A DNA stretch of 22,095 bases, taken from a virus. The notes beneath the pieces were generated by a model. It saw only the letters and a program-made list of their open reading frames with translations. It was not told where the DNA came from and did no database searches. Positions 2,171 through 16,445 of this stretch are shown one piece after another. Every line of letters begins with the position of its first letter. Within the stretch, counting starts at the first letter, position 1. The stretch spans positions 1-22,095 of IMG/VR virus record IMGVR_UViG_3300009149_003820. One strand, written 5' to 3'. The position numbers were made by a program, and so were the translations under genes.

Positions 2171-3388
2171 TTAAATATCAGCCAAATCAACTGCATAACT
2201 AAATGTCAAAATCCTATCCTTAGACACACCCCATACCAACTGAATTGGGTCTGCCTCTTTAGCCAGTGACTCGGCAAACTCATCTGCCCCAATGGGCGAG
2301 CCTCCTCTAAATACCCTAACACCATTCGCATCAAAAATTCCGAAATGATGGTAATGGCCATAGACTATGGCATCTGCATTGTGCATACCAGCCCATCCGC
2401 CAAACTTTGCCCTGCCTGCCGATGTATCTGATTGTTCTGGTGCTATGTGCCTAATATGATATTTCCAGCCCTCTATCTCAAAATTGAGGTAGTCGAGTTT
2501 TGAATAATTTATTTCCACCTTTTTACTATTCGCATACGCCCAATGTTTGAGAATAAGGTATATCATAATATCCCAGTTGGAATTAGGGTCTTTATCCTTG
2601 CCCAAACGACCGTGATTCCCCTTCACCCCATAAAACTTGACATTCAATTTTCTATCAAGCAATGCCTGAATCAATTTGGTAAATACCTCAACAACAAGCA
2701 TAACCTGATATGGCGGTGCTAATTCCTGCTCATACGCCTGTGTCGCATAAATATCCTCGCCATTTGCATTATCACCAGTTGAGATAATGACCACATCATT
2801 AATCTTTGTGCCCTTCTTGATATGATTATCCAACAGTTTCAATATCTGTGCACAAAACTTATCCATTCTCCGCTTGAATACAGTCTCGTTATACAGGATA
2901 TTACCCTGTTGGTCTTTAACTACTTTCCCAGCGTGCCAGTCAGTTAACTGGATTACCAATGTTTCGCCAGTGATGTGTGAGTGTGTTTTAGCTGCTTCAT
3001 AGGGTTTTATATCCTTTGTGAGTTCATGTAGTGATTCTACCAAAAGTTTAGAGTGGGTAGTAGAATCGATAACATTGTATTCTTTACATAGTCTGGTAAT
3101 AGCTGATTTACCTACACCCAGTTTTTCTGCTACAGCAGTCTTCGTTTCATAAAGAGCCAATAGCTTCAACAATTCCTTTTGACTCACGATTTCTTTACTA
3201 TCGGTCTTTCCAAAAACTTTTGACTTGGTTGTGTATTTTTTATAATCAATAAGCCCCTTTGCTCTAAAACGAGCAGCTGTTTTCTCAATAGTCCTATCAT
3301 GGACACCGTATTTTTCTGCAAGTTGAATATTCGTTAGACCATTATTATAGTCTTTTATAAACATTTCTTTGTCTATTTTATTTCTCAT
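2171..3388 (-). CDS. Calcineurin-like metallophosphoesterase with two N-terminal helix-turn-helix units
   Basis: 405 residues. The metallophosphoesterase signature is complete: DWH (150-152), GDN (205-207), GNH (257-259) and GHYHH (344-348), the ligands of a two-metal site. The family includes Mre11/SbcD nucleases and phosphodiesterases. N-terminal to it are two helix-turn-helix segments: about 15-43 (LTNIQLAEKYGVHDRTIEKT) and 74-104 (ETKTAVAEKLGVGKSAITRL). Together this suggests a DNA-binding nuclease or phosphatase acting on DNA ends or regulatory sites. The substrate is inference. A good Shine-Dalgarno (GGAGGTG) lies upstream, and the gene starts 16 bases after the protease gene. Confidence 0.85.
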   Translation of the reverse strand: MRNKIDKEMFIKDYNNGLTNIQLAEKYGVHDRTIEKTAARFRAKGLIDYKKYTTKSKVFGKTDSKEIVSQKELLKLLALYETKTAVAEKLGVGKSAITRLCKEYNVIDSTTHSKLLVESLHELTKDIKPYEAAKTHSHITGETLVIQLTDWHAGKVVKDQQGNILYNETVFKRRMDKFCAQILKLLDNHIKKGTKINDVVIISTGDNANGEDIYATQAYEQELAPPYQVMLVVEVFTKLIQALLDRKLNVKFYGVKGNHGRLGKDKDPNSNWDIMIYLILKHWAYANSKKVEINYSKLDYLNFEIEGWKYHIRHIAPEQSDTSAGRAKFGGWAGMHNADAIVYGHYHHFGIFDANGVRVFRGGSPIGADEFAESLAKEADPIQLVWGVSKDRILTFSYAVDLADI

Positions 3389-3404
3389 TTTAAAAACACC
3401 TCCA

Positions 3405-4229
3405 TTATTTAACTTCCAGAAACTCTTTTATAACTCTTAATCTTATAGCCAAGCCCATACTACTTTCAGGAGTAGTAGGAGAGTACCCTGGTACTTTTGA
3501 ACATATTCCGATTACATTTCCATCAGTATTAAATAAAGCACCCCCACTATTTCCAAACGTAACAGTAGCAGTTGTCATCAGATACGAAAAAGCATTTACA
3601 TTGCTAACTATCCCTTCTGTAATTGTCCAATGAGTTCCTAATGGATGCCCTACTGCAAAAACTCTGTCCTTTACTTTTGGTTCTTCATTAGCCAGTTTAA
3701 CTATTGAAAGACGAGTATTCTCGCACTTTCTCACTCTTACTAAAGCTAAATCTATATTGGGGTCTTCTTTAAGAACTTCGCCAGCATAAGTTAGTTTATC
3801 CCTTGTTCTAACAGATATAACATTGCCCAATCTTGGCACAACTACATGCTGTGCTGTCAATATATAATAATAGTCCATGTCCTCATTTATACAAACACCA
3901 GCACCGCTATCACCCATAGTAGTAATCTCAACAGTCGCTGTTAGTAATTTTTCAACATCTGGTTCTTTCTGTGGTTTGGTTATCATATTTAATATAGCAA
4001 GATTTATACTCTGCTCCAAAATTAGTCTTTGCTGTCCTTCTACTGATTCGATTACCTCATCCAAATTAGAATTAACACCTTCCATATATTTTTCTACTAA
4101 AACAATGGTCTCCAATAAATCTTGCTCCAATTTCACAGTATATTTTTGCTGTATAACATTTGTGGTTACATTAAATAAAACTACAGCAATTAATAAATAT
4201 AGTGCAAATTCTTTTAATAGATTTTTCAT
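3405..4229 (-). CDS. Membrane-anchored trypsin-like serine protease (HtrA/DegP-type catalytic domain, no PDZ)
   Basis: 274 residues. Residues 8-25 (FALYLLIAVVLFNVTTNV) form an N-terminal membrane anchor or uncleaved signal. A helical linker of about 60 residues follows (coiled-coil-like, 30-85), then the protease domain. The catalytic triad is visible: His128 in LTAQHVV, Asp160 in NIDLALVRV, and Ser228 in TFGNSGGALFN. The glycine-rich oxyanion loop is as in the HtrA family. The chain ends directly after the protease domain, so the PDZ domains usual in DegP are absent. The domain should face the periplasm or cell exterior. Coupled to the upstream 90-residue membrane protein by an ATGA overlap. 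Its job in the phage (surface protein processing, exclusion, lysis control) is unknown. Confidence 0.88.
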   Translation of the reverse strand: MKNLLKEFALYLLIAVVLFNVTTNVIQQKYTVKLEQDLLETIVLVEKYMEGVNSNLDEVIESVEGQQRLILEQSINLAILNMITKPQKEPDVEKLLTATVEITTMGDSGAGVCINEDMDYYYILTAQHVVVPRLGNVISVRTRDKLTYAGEVLKEDPNIDLALVRVRKCENTRLSIVKLANEEPKVKDRVFAVGHPLGTHWTITEGIVSNVNAFSYLMTTATVTFGNSGGALFNTDGNVIGICSKVPGYSPTTPESSMGLAIRLRVIKEFLEVK

Positions 4230-4498
4230 TTCATTCTCCTTTTATCAGTTAAAGTAAATCCTGTAACAAAATCAATTTCAAAAATTAATTTAGCACGATT
4301 TTCACCAGTATATCTCGCCAAATAAATTAGTCTACCTTGTCTATTATATGTTTTAATAAAATTAGTATCTGTTTTTCCATCATAACTTACTATGTTTAAA
4401 GTAGGTAAATATCCAATTCTTATAAAATAAGGACTTACCAAAAAAATAGTCAAAGCACCCAAAATACTAATCACTAATACCAATTTTTTATAATTCAT
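4226..4498 (-). CDS. Small N-terminally anchored exported protein, 90 aa
   Basis: Not recognised. Residues 5-23 (KLVLVISILGALTIFLVSP) are a membrane anchor or signal sequence. The rest is a small predicted beta-rich domain (SYDGKTDTNFIKTYNRQGRL, then RAKLIFEIDFVTG). It sits between the deformylase and protease genes and overlaps both by ATGA, so the three are co-translated. A partner or substrate relation to the protease is possible but only inferred. Confidence 0.7.
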   Translation of the reverse strand: MNYKKLVLVISILGALTIFLVSPYFIRIGYLPTLNIVSYDGKTDTNFIKTYNRQGRLIYLARYTGENRAKLIFEIDFVTGFTLTDKRRMK

Positions 4499-5037
4499 TT
4501 CAATTCTCCTTTTACCACAAAACCATGTTCAACACCATCGTGCCTCTTATATTTCACATTACAGGTAGCACACCGTTCATTTCTGCCTATTTTCCTGCTC
4601 GGCCTCGTATATGGTTTGGCTTGCCTATCAGTAATCAGCAATCCATTTAGGTGGTCTATCTCGTGTTGGCAAGCAATCGCCTCCATACCATATAAAACAT
4701 ATTTACCCTTATCAAATCCATTCTCAATAGTTATCTCTCTATATCGTTGAGTTGTTACTGGCTTTTTTAAATCTGGTAAACTCAAGCAACTCTCCTGATA
4801 AAATACTATCTCTTTACTATAGTCAATTATTTTTGGGTTGATTAAATCAATCTTTTCTTTATCTGGAATTCGGATAACAGCAACCTTAACATCTAAACCA
4901 ATTTGATTTGCTGCCAAACCTATTCCAGTGGGATGTTGTGCCAATTCTGCCTCAAGTTGTTGGGTAACACTTTCTACTTCTTCTGGCAGAACTTCACGAC
5001 AGGATTTGCGTAGTTTATTGATATCAAATTCAATCAT
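4495..5037 (-). CDS. def: Peptide deformylase with C-terminal Cys/His tail
   Basis: 180 residues. It removes the formyl group from the N-terminal methionine of new proteins. All three family motifs are present: GIGLAANQ (38-45), ESCLS (82-86, Cys84 as metal ligand) and QHEIDHL (124-130, His125 and His129 as ligands, Glu126 as catalyst). Cellular enzymes have EGCLS, so Ser83 replaces the usual Gly. After about residue 148 there is an extra tail, GRNERCATCNVKYKRHDG, resembling the start of a SEC-C metal-binding motif. Phage-encoded deformylases are known from marine phages. The gene starts within the stop of the upstream small gene. Confidence 0.93.
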   Translation of the reverse strand: MIEFDINKLRKSCREVLPEEVESVTQQLEAELAQHPTGIGLAANQIGLDVKVAVIRIPDKEKIDLINPKIIDYSKEIVFYQESCLSLPDLKKPVTTQRYREITIENGFDKGKYVLYGMEAIACQHEIDHLNGLLITDRQAKPYTRPSRKIGRNERCATCNVKYKRHDGVEHGFVVKGELK

Positions 5038-5247: not shown

Positions 5248-8200
5248 CTATTTCTGAAAATCTTGAAAGTACGTTTCCATTTCTTCTCTTGTACACTCCA
5301 CGATTTTGGAAATATCTTTATAAAATTTATAGTATAACTTGCCCTTAAATCCACCTGTCTTATTTTTAATGATGGCCATCTCAATTATAGGCTGAGATTC
5401 ACCACTATTGTCCACAAAATACAAAGTAGAATCATCTTTTAAATAAAAATCGTTATAAAGCAGTACCGTTAAATCTGAATCAAATTGTAAATCTTTAACC
5501 TCTTTTATATCGTCGCCAGTTGGTCGGCGTAAGGAGTTTATCTTCTTGATTTCAGCAGTAGCAACTACTGGAACATCATAATCAGTCTTCCATCTTTTTA
5601 GCGTGTCGGAAATATACATATATGTTTCCCTTGTGGAAGCAAACCTTAATTCTGTTTTAATCCTGTGCAAATTATCCACGATAACTACTAATTGTTTTTT
5701 GCCCGCTATTTCTTTATAGATACGAATATATTTTTCCATTTCTTCTATGCTACGAATATCATTTTCCTCTTTTATAGCAAAGGAGTTAGCCAATCCTTTC
5801 AAATCATTTACAGCATTTTCACGAATCTTGAGGAGTTCTTCAACTTTTTCTGGTGCAAGTTCCTTGTTATACTTAATTTTAAATTTAGGATTTGCTATAG
5901 TATTTATTTCCAAATCTGTGGTAGTAGCAAGCAATCTTGGCAAAACTTGTCGCACATTATCATCAATGGAAAAGAACAATACGAAAACATCATTGCCATT
6001 ATCTTTAATTAAATTTAAAGATAGATTGAGTAATAGAGCCGAATTATGAACAATGATATTATTGGCGATAAAATTATGGGCCTTTGGCACTGTGATATCA
6101 AATGTCTCTTCTTTTCCAATATACCTGATTGTTTTTATTTTATCCCAAAAAATTGGTAATTCTAATAAATTTAATAAGTATTCATCCTCAAAGAAAGTAG
6201 CAAATTTATATAACATCTGTTTAGATAATGATGTTCTCTTTAATTTTTCAAATCGTTTAAGGAAGCCTTTACCTGCACTTCTAACATTATGACAATATTT
6301 TGCAAACTCTCGCCAAGTTTTGTTAGAATTTTTATGGATATTGTATATATGATTTATTAAATTTTCATCAACAGGAATTATATCAGCTTTACCATTTGGG
6401 TATTCACTCTTATGTTTTTTTAATAACTCTATAGCTTTCTTCTGCTTGGTAAAAAAGCCTATTTCTCTGATAAATTTTCTAATTGATTCAATATCCAACA
6501 ATGTAATAATATAAGCAACCTGTGGTTTATTATTAAATCGAAACTTCTTAGCACGAAATTTAGTATGCAAACCAAACTTCAGCAATAAATTTTGAACATC
6601 GCTGGCTAATTTTTCTGAACTAACTCCAAACTCTATCCTAATATAACCGTTACTTTCAAAAATACTGCCATCACAATCAAATAAGTGTCGAAGAAATAAA
6701 GCTGTATCTTCCTTTGAACATCTATATAAAGAATCTGGAACAAACTTATCTCTCGATAATTTTCCATATATACCTTGTAGAATTAAGAAATCTTTTAATT
6801 TTCTATTATTAGTAAGTGTATAAGTTATATCTTTATAATTCTTTATCAAAATTTCTGGATAAGATTGTTTTATGCTTTGACAAAAATCATTAACAATTTG
6901 TTTGTTCGTGTTAGTAAAATCTATCTTACGATGCTTAAGACTGAAACATCCTTCAGCTATTAAATAAGCTAAAATTTTTATTTGTTCTTTCGTAATAGGC
7001 GATTTAGAATTGAAGAAAGATAATTCCTGTGGAACTGCTATCCCCTCTTCTACTTTTAAATTTTTTAGGCTCTTCCATCCATCAATAGTAAAAAATGGAT
7101 GATTAGCTGTTGCTTTTATTCTTTTACCATTAGTAGTTGTTAATTCATAAACATTCTTTATTCCATTGTTATAAAATTTAGTCATTTTGGTTTGTATATA
7201 TTTTTTCTTTTTTAAATCAAACCCAATAAGTTGGGTTCCCTCGAAATTTTTTAGCTCTTTTATTGGTATAGTTTTACCTGTCGCAAGTGTTATTCTGGTA
7301 TCACCACAAAGGCACTTTCCAATATTTGTGTCCCCAGCAAGTAGATAAAAAGCATTTTGTAGCCCATCCAGTTTCTTTGTAAGTATAGGATATCCAGTTT
7401 CAAGCCCTAATAAACTATTGCCCCTCGACCATGCCCAAGATTCGAAATTGTTTACCTCATTTTCCAGAGATGCCTTTTCTTTCAGTATATCCCTTGAGGT
7501 CAACAAATATTTCCCACGCCCCAATTTACGATTTCGTTCCACCTCTTTTTTCAGTGCATCAAAAGTAACATCCAGTGCATCGGATAAATCTCGTATCATC
7601 TGCTCGGTAGTTATATAATCTTCCTCATTTACTATCAACTGGATTAAATCGTTTTTCAGAAACTCATTCTCTTTATTCTTTTTCAGGTCTTGAAGTTTCC
7701 AGTCAAAAATAGTAAACTCTGGTAAATTAAAAAATTCTTTTGTGCTATGGTTTTGCAGATATTCATCTGGGTCTTTCGCTTCATCGAGTTCCTTAATTGT
7801 TACTTCTATATCTGCTTTGTTTTTTAGTTTTTCCTCGACAATCCTGATAGTTGCCTCTTTTCCTGCTTCATCATTGTCAAGATTTAAACATAGTTGCTTA
7901 ATGCGATTATAAACTAAAAGGTCATATTGTTTATCGCTAAATCCCAAACCACACAAGGCAATTACATTATCTATCCCCCGCAAAGATAATGCCCACACAT
8001 CGCTATATCCTTCAACTATGTAGACCTTTGGATGGTTTTTTGCCTCTTTTAAATTATACAATATATCTGCCTTCCTATATAAATTAGTTGCTCTAAAATT
8101 GAGATATTTTGTTTCGCCATTTTTATCTTCCAATCTTCTGCTGGCAAATCCAACTATCCTGCCATACCCATCTCTAATAGGAAATACTAATCTATTATTT

Positions 8201-8817
8201 AAAACACCTTTGGCACTGTTCTGGTTTTTCTCGTTCTCCTTATCCATTAAGCCAGCCATTTCTAGTTGCTCATTAGTGTATCCTCGTTTCTCAAGATTCG
8301 CAATTAGTTTATCATAAAGGCAATAGCCAAATTCAAACTTGTCTATAATTTTTTCCCACCGTCTTTTCTTAATATAGTCCTGAACCTTTTGTAGAGATGG
8401 GTGATTTTGTTTTATTACTGCTCGCATCATTTTATTTGCTATCTCAAGTAATTCCCTTAATTGCCCAGTTTGTTTTTCTTTCTCACTAATATCCTCTATC
8501 TCATAAGGAATACCAAACTTTTTAGCAAGGTATAAAACATTATCGCTGATAAACTCCGAGCCAGTAAGAGGCTTACCTTCCAAAAAATAAGCACAAGCAA
8601 ATATATCAGCATTGATTACCTCGTCGCAAACGAAACATTTAATATGCTCGTCATCGGGGAAGAAGCTCGCCGAGGGAGTATTATCATCATTTCTGTGTGC
8701 AGATTTATTAGGACAAGTGAGATGATTTCCCTCGAACTTGGTGTCGTGTTCTTCCAAGTAATCTCGCAAGTATGGTCTTATTTTATTTTTTAGTTCTTCT
8801 AATTGTTTTATTCTCAC
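5248..8817 (-). CDS. DnaG-DnaB type primase-helicase containing an intein
   Basis: 1189 residues as written, 765 after removal of the intein (502-925). Start is GTG at 8817, overlapping the upstream stop (GTGA). A zinc-binding domain comes first (C35, H41, C61, C64). The primase core and TOPRIM fold follow: VEGYSD with Glu269, and LDNDEAG with Asp314/Asp316. Then a linker, then a RecA-like DnaB helicase domain. Walker A is GDTNIGK-S, split by the intein after Lys501. Walker B is LVVIVDNLH (Asp1048). A later RRPTGDDIKEVKD segment resembles the H4 region of DnaB. It makes primers and unwinds DNA at the phage replication fork, like T7 gp4. The stop is TAG, with a TAA three codons on. Confidence 0.92.
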   Translation of the reverse strand: MRIKQLEELKNKIRPYLRDYLEEHDTKFEGNHLTCPNKSAHRNDDNTPSASFFPDDEHIKCFVCDEVINADIFACAYFLEGKPLTGSEFISDNVLYLAKKFGIPYEIEDISEKEKQTGQLRELLEIANKMMRAVIKQNHPSLQKVQDYIKKRRWEKIIDKFEFGYCLYDKLIANLEKRGYTNEQLEMAGLMDKENEKNQNSAKGVLNNRLVFPIRDGYGRIVGFASRRLEDKNGETKYLNFRATNLYRKADILYNLKEAKNHPKVYIVEGYSDVWALSLRGIDNVIALCGLGFSDKQYDLLVYNRIKQLCLNLDNDEAGKEATIRIVEEKLKNKADIEVTIKELDEAKDPDEYLQNHSTKEFFNLPEFTIFDWKLQDLKKNKENEFLKNDLIQLIVNEEDYITTEQMIRDLSDALDVTFDALKKEVERNRKLGRGKYLLTSRDILKEKASLENEVNNFESWAWSRGNSLLGLETGYPILTKKLDGLQNAFYLLAGDTNIGKCLCGDTRITLATGKTIPIKELKNFEGTQLIGFDLKKKKYIQTKMTKFYNNGIKNVYELTTTNGKRIKATANHPFFTIDGWKSLKNLKVEEGIAVPQELSFFNSKSPITKEQIKILAYLIAEGCFSLKHRKIDFTNTNKQIVNDFCQSIKQSYPEILIKNYKDITYTLTNNRKLKDFLILQGIYGKLSRDKFVPDSLYRCSKEDTALFLRHLFDCDGSIFESNGYIRIEFGVSSEKLASDVQNLLLKFGLHTKFRAKKFRFNNKPQVAYIITLLDIESIRKFIREIGFFTKQKKAIELLKKHKSEYPNGKADIIPVDENLINHIYNIHKNSNKTWREFAKYCHNVRSAGKGFLKRFEKLKRTSLSKQMLYKFATFFEDEYLLNLLELPIFWDKIKTIRYIGKEETFDITVPKAHNFIANNIIVHNSALLLNLSLNLIKDNGNDVFVLFFSIDDNVRQVLPRLLATTTDLEINTIANPKFKIKYNKELAPEKVEELLKIRENAVNDLKGLANSFAIKEENDIRSIEEMEKYIRIYKEIAGKKQLVVIVDNLHRIKTELRFASTRETYMYISDTLKRWKTDYDVPVVATAEIKKINSLRRPTGDDIKEVKDLQFDSDLTVLLYNDFYLKDDSTLYFVDNSGESQPIIEMAIIKNKTGGFKGKLYYKFYKDISKIVECTREEMETYFQDFQK
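6043..7314 (-). mobile_element. LAGLIDADG intein in the Walker A motif of the helicase
   Basis: 424 codons in frame (residues 502-925 of the precursor). The N-terminal splice junction is K/CLCGDTRI. Block B is TANH (570-573). Two LAGLIDADG-type helices follow, LAYLIAEGCFS (616-626) and LRHLFDCDGSI (709-719), each with an acidic metal ligand, so homing endonuclease activity looks possible. The C-terminal junction is IIVHN/S, with terminal Asn925 and Ser926 as the +1 nucleophile. Excision restores GDTNIGKS, a proper P-loop. All residues needed for protein splicing are present. Confidence 0.93.
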
Positions 8818-9026
8818 TTATCTAATTTCTCCTCTTGTGCTTTGAATATGACTGTTGCTGTTTCATACCAACTAATCTTTCCGTTTAGTAAATAATGATA
8901 TATTTCTACCACACTCAATCTTCTTTTCTTATAGTATGCTTCAATCTCATCAAGAGTTCTGTCAAAACTAAATTCCACTGAAAATTCTTTTAATATCCCC
9001 CTCAAACTCAACTCTTTATTCTTCAT
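8814..9026 (-). CDS. Hypothetical protein, 70 aa
   Basis: Not recognised. Predicted helical, with LDEIEAYYKKRRLSVVEIYH near the middle; no membrane segment or Cys pair. A very strong ribosome binding site (GGGGGGGAGGTAATT) precedes the ATG. Its TGA overlaps the GTG start of the primase-helicase, so the two are translationally coupled. It could be a replisome accessory factor, by position only. Confidence 0.68.
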   Translation of the reverse strand: MKNKELSLRGILKEFSVEFSFDRTLDEIEAYYKKRRLSVVEIYHYLLNGKISWYETATVIFKAQEEKLDK

Positions 9027-9028
9027 AA

Positions 9029-9253
9029 TTACCTCCCCCCCTCTCTATTTGTTGCAAAATGTTTATATACCTGACTTTTTAATTCGTAAAATTGTCGGTC
9101 TATCATACGCTTTATTAAATCTTTATCTTTACAAAATCCTTTATCTATTAGTTCTGTTATTTCAAAACGCCTCATACCATCATCAAAGTATGTTCTAATT
9201 TCTATTCTCCCAGCATCCATATACCACGGGCAAGTTTCAATAGTTAATTTCAT
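9029..9253 (-). CDS. Hypothetical protein, 74 aa
   Basis: Not recognised. Alternating strands (ETCPWYMDAGRIEIRTYFDD, then RRFEITELIDKG) are followed by a helix with RMIDRQFYELKSQVYKHF. Strong Shine-Dalgarno GGGGAGGTAAGAG before the ATG. It lies three bases upstream of the next gene. Confidence 0.68.
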   Translation of the reverse strand: MKLTIETCPWYMDAGRIEIRTYFDDGMRRFEITELIDKGFCKDKDLIKRMIDRQFYELKSQVYKHFATNREGGR

Positions 9254-9256
9254 CTC

Positions 9257-9327
9257 TTACCTCCCCTTAATTAACTTCTTCTCTACCTCATTTTCCAAAT
9301 AGTTTAATATGAACGATTGGGGTTCAT
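9257..9327 (-). pseudogene. Possible frameshifted mini-gene of about 23 codons
   Basis: An excellent ribosome binding site (AAGGAGGAAAAG) precedes ATG at 9327, but that frame ends after seven codons (MNPNRSY). The next frame is open from just after the ATG to TAA at 9257 and reads PQSFILNYLENEVEKKLIKG, a sensible helix. One extra base next to the start codon would join ATG to this frame. This may be a natural or assembly frameshift, or chance. Confidence 0.3.
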
Positions 9328-9365
9328 CTTTTCCTCCTTCTCATTGTTCAGCTTCCCTCAAATCT

Positions 9366-9485
9366 TCAATAAAAGTGGTGGACAGTTGGAGGGGTGAGGT
9401 AATTGCCGACACCTAACTTACTCACAGCTTGCCTATCGGTTACTTGTCGCATACCCGCTTCAGCTTTATCCCTTCCCTTTTTCAC
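9366..9485 (-). CDS. Possible small protein, 39 aa, GTG start
   Basis: GTG at 9485 has GGAGG eight bases upstream. The product begins MKKGRDKAEAGMRQVTDRQA and ends LTPPTVHHFY. Not recognised; no membrane segment or Cys. The stretch is richer in G+C than its surroundings and also contains a hairpin, so it may instead be an RNA or regulatory element rather than a gene. Confidence 0.35.
   Translation of the reverse strand: MKKGRDKAEAGMRQVTDRQAVSKLGVGNYLTPPTVHHFY
9394..9425 (-). other. Candidate RNA hairpin in a G+C-richer gap
   Basis: GTGAG at one end pairs with CTCAC at the other, and after a two-base internal loop AGTT pairs with AATT, leaving a ten-base loop (AGGTGTCGGC). It lies inside the possible 39-residue gene. 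No U-run follows, so it is not a typical terminator. Folding was judged by eye. Confidence 0.25.
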
Positions 9486-9522
9486 TATGCCTGCCTCCAC
9501 ACATAGAATAGCTCCTCTCAAA

Positions 9523-9759
9523 TTATATTTCTTCTATTGTGATACGAACTCTTTTCTTTTTATTACAAAACGGATAAGGATGAACACAACCTTGCATAGG
9601 ACGCTTATTTCTATAAATCAAAGGAACTTTTAATTCGGAATGCCTTAATGCATCTATCCATTCATTTTCTTTAGTACGATTTCTTCGTCTTGTGAAAAAC
9701 TTAAACCTTTCTTTCCATTGAGTATCAGCCCACCCTACCAAACTTTTCTTCTTCTTCAT
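9523..9759 (-). CDS. Hypothetical basic protein, 78 aa
   Basis: Not recognised by function. Very basic N-terminus (MKKKKSLVGWADTQWKERFK), a middle part with RRRNRTKENEW, and an ending typical of small phage proteins (KKRVRITIEEI). A C-x7-C spacing (CVHPYPFC) is present. It has no membrane segment. It follows the 134-residue gene with a ribosome binding site GAGGTGGAGGG in the 12-base gap. Confidence 0.65.
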   Translation of the reverse strand: MKKKKSLVGWADTQWKERFKFFTRRRNRTKENEWIDALRHSELKVPLIYRNKRPMQGCVHPYPFCNKKKRVRITIEEI

Positions 9760-9771
9760 CCCTCCACCTCT

Positions 9772-10176
9772 CTAATTCTTGGCACTATTTATCTCTAATA
9801 GCATTTTCCCTGCGGCGTTTTCGGGAGTGTTGGCTTCTACTGCATATTTAATATTATATTCTAAATCTTGATAACCTACCCAATAAGGATTTTTGTCATA
9901 ATATCCGTGTTTAGACCATCGTTTCGTAATGTGCAATGAAAATTCAACTTTTCCTGTATTATCTCTTATGGCATCAGGCAACTCCCTCACCAATTCCCCT
10001 AAAGTTGGGGCGGGGATAACTTCCATATCACCTTGCCCTTGAGGGACATAAACGGCTTCTTTTTTATCTCTTAATTCCCAATTATTATAAACACTACACC
10101 ACCACCACTCCGTATCAATCTTAATCCCTGCTTTATCTAAGGCTTTACTAACCTCTAAACTTGCGGTATGTATCAT
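9772..10176 (-). CDS. Conserved-looking phage hypothetical protein, 134 aa
   Basis: No named family recognised. Trp-rich N-terminal half (TEWWWCSVYNNWELRDK), then PAPTLGELVRELPDAIR and a closing ANTPENAAGKMLLEI. The pattern is that of small cytoplasmic phage proteins that carry a P-x-P-T-x-x-E-L segment (from memory). Start supported by CGGAG seven bases upstream of the ATG. It lies directly downstream of the putative diversity-generating target gene. Confidence 0.7.
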   Translation of the reverse strand: MIHTASLEVSKALDKAGIKIDTEWWWCSVYNNWELRDKKEAVYVPQGQGDMEVIPAPTLGELVRELPDAIRDNTGKVEFSLHITKRWSKHGYYDKNPYWVGYQDLEYNIKYAVEANTPENAAGKMLLEINSAKN

Positions 10177-10213
10177 TGTGTGGCTCCGTTTCGTTTAATT
10201 GTCAAAATATCAA

Positions 10214-10354
10214 TCACTGGCCACCTCGAACAGGCCGCACATAGCAAGAGAAAGCCTTACCGCCGTAGTACACGAGGCCATTGTAGAAATAGACGAACCA
10301 GGCGCCGGCGGTGTAGTCAGCGTAAGTAGTGTTGGACCAGTAGAGGTCGGACTG
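10214..10354 (-). repeat. Putative variable repeat (VR) of a diversity-generating retroelement
   Basis: About 140 bp at the 3' end of the DUF1566 gene with sharply higher G+C than its flanks. NNC codons fall at the positions where known templates carry AAC runs. The invariant parts (TGGTCC near the start, GTGCGGCCTGTTCGAGG near the end) would be the conserved anchors, the latter the mutagenic-homing initiation site. No second copy (template repeat) and no reverse transcriptase are seen in the window. The left border is approximate. Confidence 0.65.
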
Positions 10355-10630
10355 GTATTCTTTTATGCCGTCAATAACAGCAGGTTCATATTTAGAATAA
10401 TCAATAATGCTGATAAGTTCTTTTATTGTGGGTAATCGCCAATCCTTATAACCGCCTGTTGCCAGTTTTTTACACGCCTGCTTTGCCTCATCCCAAGTCA
10501 TCTTCTTCGGCAATGTCTTGCCCCACATTAAATTACCCTGGATAACAATCTCACTTTTTATGGGGGCAGTTACTGGCTTTAGAGCATCCCTGATTTCTTT
10601 CAAGATTGATAATATTGTTTCTTTTTTCAT
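10214..10630 (-). CDS. DUF1566 / C-type-lectin-fold protein, probable diversity-generating retroelement target
   Basis: 138 residues, no signal peptide. After a helical N-terminus comes the DUF1566 core: LMWGKTLPKKMTWDEAKQAC (34-53), GGYKDWRLPTIKEL (59-72), then YWSN (97-100) and a closing YVRPVRGG (130-137). This formylglycine-enzyme/C-type-lectin-like fold is the usual scaffold of variable proteins of diversity-generating retroelements. Codons 92-138 are rich in NNC (TAC, GAC, ACC, GCC, GGC, TTC, CTC) and G+C, unlike the AT-rich first 90 codons. That is what adenine-specific mutagenesis of AAC codons leaves. The role would be a variable ligand-binding protein, for example on the virion. Start has GGATAGGGAG upstream. 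Confidence 0.85.
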   Translation of the reverse strand: MKKETILSILKEIRDALKPVTAPIKSEIVIQGNLMWGKTLPKKMTWDEAKQACKKLATGGYKDWRLPTIKELISIIDYSKYEPAVIDGIKEYQSDLYWSNTTYADYTAGAWFVYFYNGLVYYGGKAFSCYVRPVRGGQ

Positions 10631-10634
10631 CTCC

Positions 10635-10938
10635 CTATCCTTTCTTTTTTATCCCAAGGTTCTTAAGGGCTTGCTTGCGATATTGTTTAATGCCTTCTTT
10701 TATACCCTTCTCTAATCCTTTAACATAAGGTTCTTTATATCCACCTCGCATAATGGGAGAAATACCTTCGGGTAATTTGATTGCGTCAATACTTATATCT
10801 TCACTTGGCAATAACCCAACTATCTCAGATTTGGCTTGGGTAATAGTATCTTTCATCCCGTACCAAACAGTGCCGTCAGCCAATAAATTCTCATCTATTG
10901 CTTTTTTTCAATATCTCATCTAATCCTTTTGGGGTCAT
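10635..10938 (-). CDS. Hypothetical protein, about 100 aa, frameshift in an A7 run
   Basis: ATG at 10938 with a strong GGAGGAGCC site starts MTPKGLDEILKK, but the frame closes after 15 codons. A run of seven A (10902-10908) lies in between. Omitting one A gives one continuous 100-residue protein: ...DEILKKAIDENLLADGTVWY..., ending KQALKNLGIKKKG. Without the shift, the second part (10635-10883) could only start at TTG 10883, which lacks a good ribosome binding site. Causes may be sequencing or assembly error, mutation, or slippage used for regulation. Function unknown. It lies just upstream of the DUF1566 gene, with the ribosome binding site of that gene overlapping its stop. Confidence 0.65.
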
Positions 10939-11087
10939 TTTGGCTCCTCCACCTTTATATGCAATCGTTCCAAAATAATATCCACAACAAAATATTCCAA
11001 AGCAATATCGTATTCCTCATTGGCGTTTATTCGTTTCTCCACAAGATTAACTAACTTTTTATATTTCTTTTTGCTAATATATCTCAT
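10935..11087 (-). CDS. Hypothetical small protein, 50 aa
   Basis: ATG at 11087, stop TGA overlapping the next ATG at 10938. Basic start (MRYISKKKYKKLVNLVEKR), then an acidic/hydrophobic helix (ALEYFVVDIILERLHIKVEE). The ribosome binding site of the next gene lies in its last codons. Its own start lacks a clear Shine-Dalgarno. It would be the first gene of the unit that contains the DUF1566 and primase-helicase genes. Confidence 0.55.
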   Translation of the reverse strand: MRYISKKKYKKLVNLVEKRINANEEYDIALEYFVVDIILERLHIKVEEPK

Positions 11088-14034: not shown

Positions 14035-14703
14035 TTATATGTCTATGCCTAATATTTCTAATTTCTTTTTACTAAAAACTTTTATTCTTACTTTTGGATA
14101 TAATCTTTTAAATAAGTTAAATTTCTTTTCCCAGCTTTTCCATTTATAGCCCTTAATTTCTATATATAAATCCCATATAGGAATATAAAAATCTGGAGTA
14201 TAGGTTGTATTCTTTAAGTTAAATCTTTTTGGTTCATAAAACCATTTATATCCACTCAAATCTAAAAAACGAGCAAATTTAATTTCCCAAGTAGAACGCA
14301 TCCATATATTTTTATAATAGGCTCCATTACCTTTACAGATATAACCTCTCTTAAATATAGGATTGTTTTTTCTCATCCTCTCACTTGCATCAGGTCTTTT
14401 TCTGCCTTTCATTCTTTTACTAATATCTGGTCGTATTTTTCCTTTTAATGCCTCAGCAGTAGTTCGCCTTCGGATACTATATTTAAGTAGATTATTATGA
14501 ATTGTGCTCGCACTACAATCAAATTCTTTAGCTATTTGTGCTTCCGATTTTTTATCTTCCACATACTTTTGAAGTAAAAAATTTTTTGAAATATTAAATT
14601 TAAAGTTTGGATTATTTGAACCATTAAAATCTGCATGATTTTCTCGCATTTTCCTGCGAGTTTCTTCTGTATGATGTTTTCTTAAAAAAGGACAATTTTT
14701 CAT
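14035..14703 (-). CDS. Free-standing homing endonuclease, PD-(D/E)XK type with NUMOD3 and HTH motifs
   Basis: 222 residues. HHTEETRRKMRENH (10-23) is a NUMOD3-type DNA-binding motif, repeated more loosely at 87-117 (ALKGKIRP, GRKRPDASERM). A helix-turn-helix lies at about 44-75 (EAQIAKEFDCSASTIHNNLL). The C-terminal nuclease core has Glu140 (RSTWEIKFARFL), Asp171 in TPDFYIP and Glu182-x-Lys184 in YIEIKG, the PD-(D/E)XK active site. It is closely related to the gene at 15633-16445. Such enzymes cut phage DNA lacking the gene and spread by recombination. Shine-Dalgarno AAAAGGAGCTAGT upstream. Confidence 0.82.
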   Translation of the reverse strand: MKNCPFLRKHHTEETRRKMRENHADFNGSNNPNFKFNISKNFLLQKYVEDKKSEAQIAKEFDCSASTIHNNLLKYSIRRRTTAEALKGKIRPDISKRMKGRKRPDASERMRKNNPIFKRGYICKGNGAYYKNIWMRSTWEIKFARFLDLSGYKWFYEPKRFNLKNTTYTPDFYIPIWDLYIEIKGYKWKSWEKKFNLFKRLYPKVRIKVFSKKKLEILGIDI

Positions 14704-15447: not shown

Positions 15448-15633
15448 CTATACCTCCTCAATAATAGTTATATCTGGAAATGTGGGTACAGGTTTTTTAT
15501 TCAATCTTTGAGCCAATGTCCTCAATCGCTTTCTTTTTGACACAGACTTCTTTCGCTTGCTTCTATTCCTATGACCAGCTACGGATTTATGCCTTCCTTT
15601 ACGAATAGTTTTTAATCTCTTTCGATTAGCCAT
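15448..15633 (-). CDS. Very basic small protein, 61 aa
   Basis: Starts at ATG 15633, overlapping the TGA of the nuclease gene. About 40 percent Lys/Arg: MANRKRLKTIRKGRHKSVAG, then RSKRKKSVSKRKRLRTL, with a hydrophobic acidic end (PTFPDITIIEEV). Such composition suggests nucleic-acid binding. A GTG one codon upstream (15636) is an alternative start. Confidence 0.6.
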   Translation of the reverse strand: MANRKRLKTIRKGRHKSVAGHRNRSKRKKSVSKRKRLRTLAQRLNKKPVPTFPDITIIEEV

Positions 15634-16445
15634 CACAGCACCCCCAGTTTTTCCAGTTTATTTTTATTTATTATAACTATATTAGTTTTTAGATACTGCT
15701 TTTTGAATAATCTAAATTTTTCTTTAGCATCTTTTCTCCACCAACCTTTTATCTCAATATAACAATCCCATTCTGGGATATAGAAATCTGGTATATAAGT
15801 AGAATGTTTTAAATCAAAGGCTTTAGATTCGTATAACCATTTGATCCCACTCAAATCTAAAAAATAAGCAAATTTAATTTCATAAGAAGAACGCATAGCT
15901 ATTCCATTATATCTAATTTTCCTACCACAAGCCATTGAATTTCTGTAGTCCTTATTCTTCCAGTTCAATCTACTAGCACAAGAACGACATTTTTTCTGTC
16001 CATATATACCATTGCTTACAGAAATTCTTTTATCACAGTTTATACAATAATATTTTCTGCTAGCTCTCCCATCTAGATAACTGGGATGATTTTTAATATT
16101 TTTAGCTAATTTATTTATCAATATTTCACTAAATGTTCTAATATGAATATTGTGTCTAATCAATCTATTTCTTATAGGTGCCTCACTACAATCTAATTCC
16201 TTAGCAATTTGTGACATAGTTTTTTTATTTTCATTATATTTTCTCAGAAGAAATTGTTTTGTAATCTTACAATCGTTCTCCAGTCTATTAGCCATATCTA
16301 TAGTTCTAACTGGAATGTTATATTTCTTTAACCTATTTCTTATGGCTTTCCTACTACAACCCAATTTCTTTGCTATCTTTTCAATAGGTTCTACTTTATA
16401 TTCCTTTAATAATAATTTTTTTGTTATAAAATCGTATTTTTTCAT
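15633..16445 (-). CDS. Second PD-(D/E)XK homing-type endonuclease with two HTH units and a zinc finger
   Basis: 270 residues. Two helix-turn-helix repeats (about 20-45 and 76-101) share the pattern IAKKLGCSRKAIRNRLKKYN / IAKELDCSEAPIRNRLIRHN. Next comes a four-cysteine zinc finger (C134, C137, C153, C156). The C-terminal nuclease core has Glu189 (RSSYEIKFAYFL), Asp220 in IPDFYIP and Glu231-x-Lys233 in YIEIKGWW. It shares most core residues with the nuclease at 14035-14703, but its DNA-binding half is built differently (no NUMOD3). AAGGAAA precedes the ATG. Confidence 0.8.
   Translation of the reverse strand: MKKYDFITKKLLLKEYKVEPIEKIAKKLGCSRKAIRNRLKKYNIPVRTIDMANRLENDCKITKQFLLRKYNENKKTMSQIAKELDCSEAPIRNRLIRHNIHIRTFSEILINKLAKNIKNHPSYLDGRASRKYYCINCDKRISVSNGIYGQKKCRSCASRLNWKNKDYRNSMACGRKIRYNGIAMRSSYEIKFAYFLDLSGIKWLYESKAFDLKHSTYIPDFYIPEWDCYIEIKGWWRKDAKEKFRLFKKQYLKTNIVIINKNKLEKLGVL

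Follow-up and report, generated by a model that had tools for sequence, protein, structure and literature searches.

A diversity-generating retroelement variable repeat in the early region of a tailed-phage fragment, apart from its retroelement

Introduction

Surveys of diversity-generating retroelements (DGRs) in metagenomes look around reverse transcriptases (RTs). The largest such survey is, by its own statement, blind to targets remote from the RT, and the viral targets annotated in it are mostly tail proteins (PMC8144416). DUF1566 is described as the commonest Pfam domain among DGR targets (PMC6642488). In the phage system of Bordetella phage BPP-1 (mtd), the variable repeat (VR) is C-terminal on a C-type-lectin fold, as it is in the locus described here, but the target is a tail protein, the RT is adjacent and a GC-rich hairpin with a GRNA loop lies downstream; the 24-bp element directly 3′ of the VR, which forms this hairpin, is needed for efficient retrohoming (PMC3240598). 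Remote and trans targets have been documented in bacteria: in Thiohalocapsa PB-PSB1 and in Trichodesmium, targets lie apart from RT and template repeat (TR), as here, although those are bacterial chromosomes in which the TR was identified, whereas the present locus is phage DNA for which no TR was found (PMC10907252, PMC8867640).

The window, that is, the whole stretch of DNA analysed, is an IMG/VR record of 22,095 bases, a linear virus fragment from a tailed phage. A first-pass annotation, made from the sequence alone, had marked the 3′ end of a DUF1566 gene as a DGR VR. The locus is compared below with three others in particular. L035 (IMGVR_UViG_3300035660_001145), a phage contig whose ORFs resemble integrase, repressor and ParB, shares with the window a target that begins KKETxLSxxKEIxDxL, has an Lcl_C domain and no evident signal peptide, carries a VR at its 3′ end with a similar 3′ flank, and is placed after early genes such as RusA (the RusA match being weak); unlike the window, it continues directly downstream with a second target, followed by Avd, TR and RT. 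L034 (IMGVR_UViG_3300045116_000383) has a TR colinear with the window VR over 138 bp, and a VR flank of similar type, but the start of its target is signal-peptide-like, the target lies beside apparent structural genes, and Avd, TR and RT are adjacent. L020 (JAUWWP010000003.1, from a Deltaproteobacteria MAG) resembles the window in its homologous 173-aa target, near-identical 3′ flank, surrounding early phage genes and lack of any RT that could be found, and differs from it in that a second VR gene lies nearby, together with an Avd-like gene (locus at 3135–3590 (+) / 3587–3922 (-), where both VR genes share one TR). The two L020 VRs differ at 15 sites, none of them at codon position 3.

Results

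The features on which the comparison turns are listed in Table 1. The target protein has YVRPVRGGQ as its C-terminal end, and the VR occupies the 3′ terminus, running to the stop codon; the Pfam match bears out the earlier description of a C-type-lectin-like scaffold ending YVRPVRGG, DUF1566 being the former name of Lcl_C. No signal peptide is evident at the N-terminus of the 138-aa protein, again as first described, and the protein is apparently cytoplasmic. Its N-terminal KKETxLSxxKEIxDxL is common to the DGR targets of L020 and L035 (173 aa and 154 aa), to which it is ~39% identical over the full length. Protein searches of viral contigs and phage records returned no close relatives, no other contig of this phage with the gene came to light, a PDB profile search gave a single weak match (HbP1, 8q4e, E=6.5e-4), and an AlphaFold model, with a mean pLDDT of 42, was too poor for use.

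Table 1. Positions of the variable repeat, its target gene and neighbouring features in the window.
Feature	Position	Strand	Details
Primase-helicase	5248-8817	(-)	PHROG primase and DnaB-like helicase matches; syntenic in relatives; replication-module marker
Accessory insertion	8837-10946		~2 kb, holds target; ~0.3 kb in relatives
134-aa gene	9772-10176	(-)	Directly 3′ of target; no Pfam/PHROG match; weak homologue elsewhere in G001
Non-coding flank	10197-10213	(-)	TTGATATTTTGACAATT; directly after stop codon
Lcl_C target gene	10214-10630	(-)	138 aa, C-type-lectin-like; Pfam PF07603, E=1.4e-27
VR	10217-10354	(-)	138 bp; ungapped and colinear with L034 TR; blastn 74 bits
VR core	10265-10312	(-)	48 bp; 28/28 non-adenine positions of L002 TR kept

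An abrupt switch to a G+C-rich run of NNC codons in the 3′-terminal part of the gene, the observation from which the locus was first recognised, is reproduced. NNC codons account for 52% of codons 89–138 and 14% of codons 1–88 or, counted over the last ~46 codons, for 57% compared with 13% earlier in the gene (Fisher 2.9e-7), and GC content is 0.56 at 10214–10354, whereas the remainder of the gene has 0.38 and the whole window 0.32. The other ORFs of the window have 10% NNC codons (5,294 codons), with a maximum of 35% in 3,960 sliding stretches of 46 codons. When 16 Lcl_C genes were ranked by the size of this jump, the window gene came first (+0.43), the runners-up were the DGR targets of L034 (+0.37) and L020 (+0.30), and non-DGR controls did not exceed +0.23. 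The jump is no requirement for a VR, since it is just +0.12 in some true DGR VRs (those of L002 and of the second L020 gene). The variable codons are NNY, the type derived from AAY, and are set on an otherwise conserved scaffold. That C-ending codons are confined to the VR, in an AT-rich genome, is easier to reconcile with a VR renewed from a template than with one imported and then frozen, but is no proof of renewal.

Pattern scans linked the segment to TRs of RT-bearing retroelements. A pattern representing the core, with N at those codons that would come from template AAY, had one match in 2.9 million viral contigs, which fell at the TR of L002, a DGR with VR gene, Avd, TR and a confirmed RT. 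When loosened, this pattern gave one extra match in the viral contigs, L002's own VR, and, across 257 Gb of genome sequence, three loci. A second pattern, built on the segment's 5′ portion, matched in the viral contigs only 3300045116_000383, the L034 contig, again at the TR; its DGR was also reached independently via Avd, and an RT was found there. The L034 TR is colinear with the window, with no gaps, from 10354 to 10217 (138 bp), and position 10354, the limit originally drawn for the segment, is exactly where this colinearity starts. By blastn against the L034 TR, the window scores 74 bits, the DGR VRs of L020 and L035 score 40–65 and non-DGR Lcl_C genes at most 42, so that, as in the pattern scans, VR–TR homology at the nucleotide level goes beyond protein homology. 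Stretches 78–82% identical to the L034 TR are also found in Bacteroides phage BS-TP1 (PQ571274.1) and Pseudomonas phage LPPA56 (OR188718.1), and the repeat family thus reaches cultured phages.

All 12 mismatches between the 48-bp core and the L002 TR lie at template adenines, as do 25 of the 40 mismatches between the window and the L034 TR (Fisher 1.7e-6). However, when non-DGR Lcl_C genes are compared with foreign TRs, mismatches at codon positions 1 and 2 are also mostly at adenines, a consequence of the invariant protein scaffold and of the AAC-rich composition of TRs. This makes adenine bias relative to foreign TRs a weak argument here, and it was dropped from the discriminating evidence, which consists of third positions (mismatches to the L002 TR at 0/16 in the window, compared with 3–6/16 in non-DGR controls), the blastn score against the L034 TR, the size of the NNC jump and the non-coding flank.

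These comparisons bear on whether the gene might simply be an ordinary Lcl_C gene that no DGR ever rewrote, its C-rich C-terminus having arisen by chance or from a codon preference of the family. The scaffold is indeed invariant across the family, the adenine bias against a foreign TR is shared by non-DGR members, and two of the three core-pattern matches in genomes (L021 and L022) are ordinary-looking and have no RT in their genomes. Those two loci are, however, G+C-richer (0.59 and 0.71) and without a comparable NNC jump, and the window groups with DGR VRs in its jump, its TR similarity and its non-coding flank, which makes this explanation very improbable. Scans matching true TRs beside RTs, TR homology exceeding that of ordinary Lcl_C genes, the NNC jump and a VR-specific 3′ flank together allow the segment to be identified with confidence as a DGR VR, in agreement with the first-pass annotation.

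A block similar to the window's non-coding flank follows CAG-TGA in five VR genes of L020, L034 and L035, that of the L034 VR being TTTGACAATTT, and is missing from the TRs of L034 and L035. The flanks of the window and L020 are identical at 21 of 24 bases; among 200,000 random pairs, none agreed as well. A flank pattern had no matches in viral contigs and, in 395 genomes from the phylum of the L020 MAG, recovered only two already-known VRs. The flank (block TTTTGACAATT) is a probable target-recognition element. No GC-rich hairpin of the BPP-1 type is present at the window flank, suggesting that the putative element is of another sequence type.

The retroelement itself was sought at several scales. 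There were no PF00078 (RT) matches in the 22,095-base record or in three related genomes, tblastn with the L035 Avd found no Avd in the window or relatives, and no TR or near-copy of the segment was present in the record or relatives. Inverted and direct repeats, sought across the whole window, gave nothing at the VR, and a TR-end pattern had no match in viral and genome collections (genomes of ~85,000 species). The absence of RT, accessory protein and near-copy from the 22 kb, as first reported, is thus upheld, and the related genomes, where a near-copy had been thought worth seeking, contained none in three out of three cases. RT, TR and Avd are all three missing from the vicinity of the target, and DGR machinery is absent within 10–12 kb of the VR. 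The record is a fragment; either this machinery lies at a distance of more than 10 kb, or it works in trans, or it has been lost.

Action in trans could mean that the phage itself carries no DGR, its VR being diversified by the DGR of a host or co-resident phage; this is a special case of the explanation favoured below, and the probabilities of the two overlap. The absence of RT from all relatives found is consistent with such an arrangement, and among bacterial DGRs those of Thiohalocapsa offer a documented case of trans action (PMC10907252). A matching TR end was, however, present in none of the genomes of ~85,000 species, and the unassembled rest of the phage could carry an RT, so that dependence on a foreign DGR appears quite unlikely.

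Most of the window has syntenic counterparts in the three relatives (82, 106 and 35 kb), whose primases are 83–84% identical to that of the window in the best segment. None of the three has an Lcl_C gene or an RT. The target sits in the 2.1 kb of window sequence that separates the primase from the conserved stretch following it, where the relatives have ~0.3 kb; this insertion, with the lack of DGR and Lcl_C in the relatives, indicates that the target was acquired as an accessory gene and that a DGR is not the default in this phage lineage. The insertion lies in a module marked by the primase-helicase, in keeping with the original assignment of the target to a replication region. The position directly 3′ of the target is taken by the 134-aa gene in the window, and by Avd or a second target in L034 and L035. 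The 106-kb relative (G002, IMGVR_UViG_3300008516_000204, L012–L017; 106,111 bp, classed as linear) repeats its first 99 bp exactly at its end, from which the genome looks complete, as it probably is; it encodes terminase, head-maturation protease, tape measure and DNA polymerase.

Location in an accessory insertion, and relatives without any DGR, would also accord with a relic, in which the target, complete with what had been a DGR VR, came from another phage and, with no access to RT or TR, the VR is now frozen. L020 likewise has two VRs and Avd but no RT that was found, and an HNH-like ORF occupies the expected place of TR and RT; neither RT nor TR was detected in the 3.3-Mb L020 MAG, which may be incomplete, and L020 may be a second case of a DGR target locus lacking an RT. 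(Elsewhere in that MAG, a 21-bp match on a different contig was rejected, having no VR or TR context.) Against a relic, the reading frame of the window target is intact, and its VR, at 0.56 GC and 52% NNC, has not drifted towards the 32% GC of the genome, while the rest of the gene is phage-like. We consider a frozen VR unlikely, if still a serious alternative.

The window has further features of its own. A stretch of ~1.3 kb within the primase-helicase gene (5995–7313) is missing in all three relatives, encodes CLCGDTRI...NNIIVHNS inside a nucleotide-binding-loop-like motif, and looks like an intein. Two related ORFs (14035–14703 and 15633–16445; nucleotide repeats 73–74% alike) resemble mobile endonuclease genes with helix-turn-helix repeats, and DNA similar to them is found elsewhere in the relatives. 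A phage-encoded peptide deformylase lies at 4495–5037 (PHROG 2890).

Discussion

The segment is the VR of a DGR target gene in a phage accessory insertion, and its RT and TR probably lie off the fragment. Their most likely location is the unassembled rest of the same phage, over 10 kb from the VR, or else a host or co-resident phage. In favour of this, a complete DGR in phage L035 has the same type of target. Against it, no RT, Avd or TR is present in the record or in three relatives, one of them apparently complete at 106 kb, and the viral and genome collections hold no matching TR end. We infer that the DGR would act on the VR remotely and may still be active.

Under this favoured explanation, TR RNA encoded off the fragment would be reverse-transcribed by a DGR RT–Avd complex with errors at adenines, and the resulting cDNA would replace 10354–10217, randomising about a dozen NNY codons. 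The residues rewritten would be those around F112, Y114, Y116, L119, Y121–G124 and A126–C129, and the conserved block that follows the stop codon would guide the replacement. A more particular proposal, in which a client VR sits in the early region of a retroelement-less phage lineage and an intracellular binding protein is diversified in trans, seems to us doubtful.

Systems of this kind are already known; what is notable is an early-region, signal-less target apart from its retroelement. The window VR was recognised without its RT, and an NNY run ending CAG-TGATTGATNTTTTGACAATT offers a signature for finding further VRs. The presence of signal-less targets among early genes in the window, L035 and L020 suggests that the proteins diversified by some phages act inside the cell.
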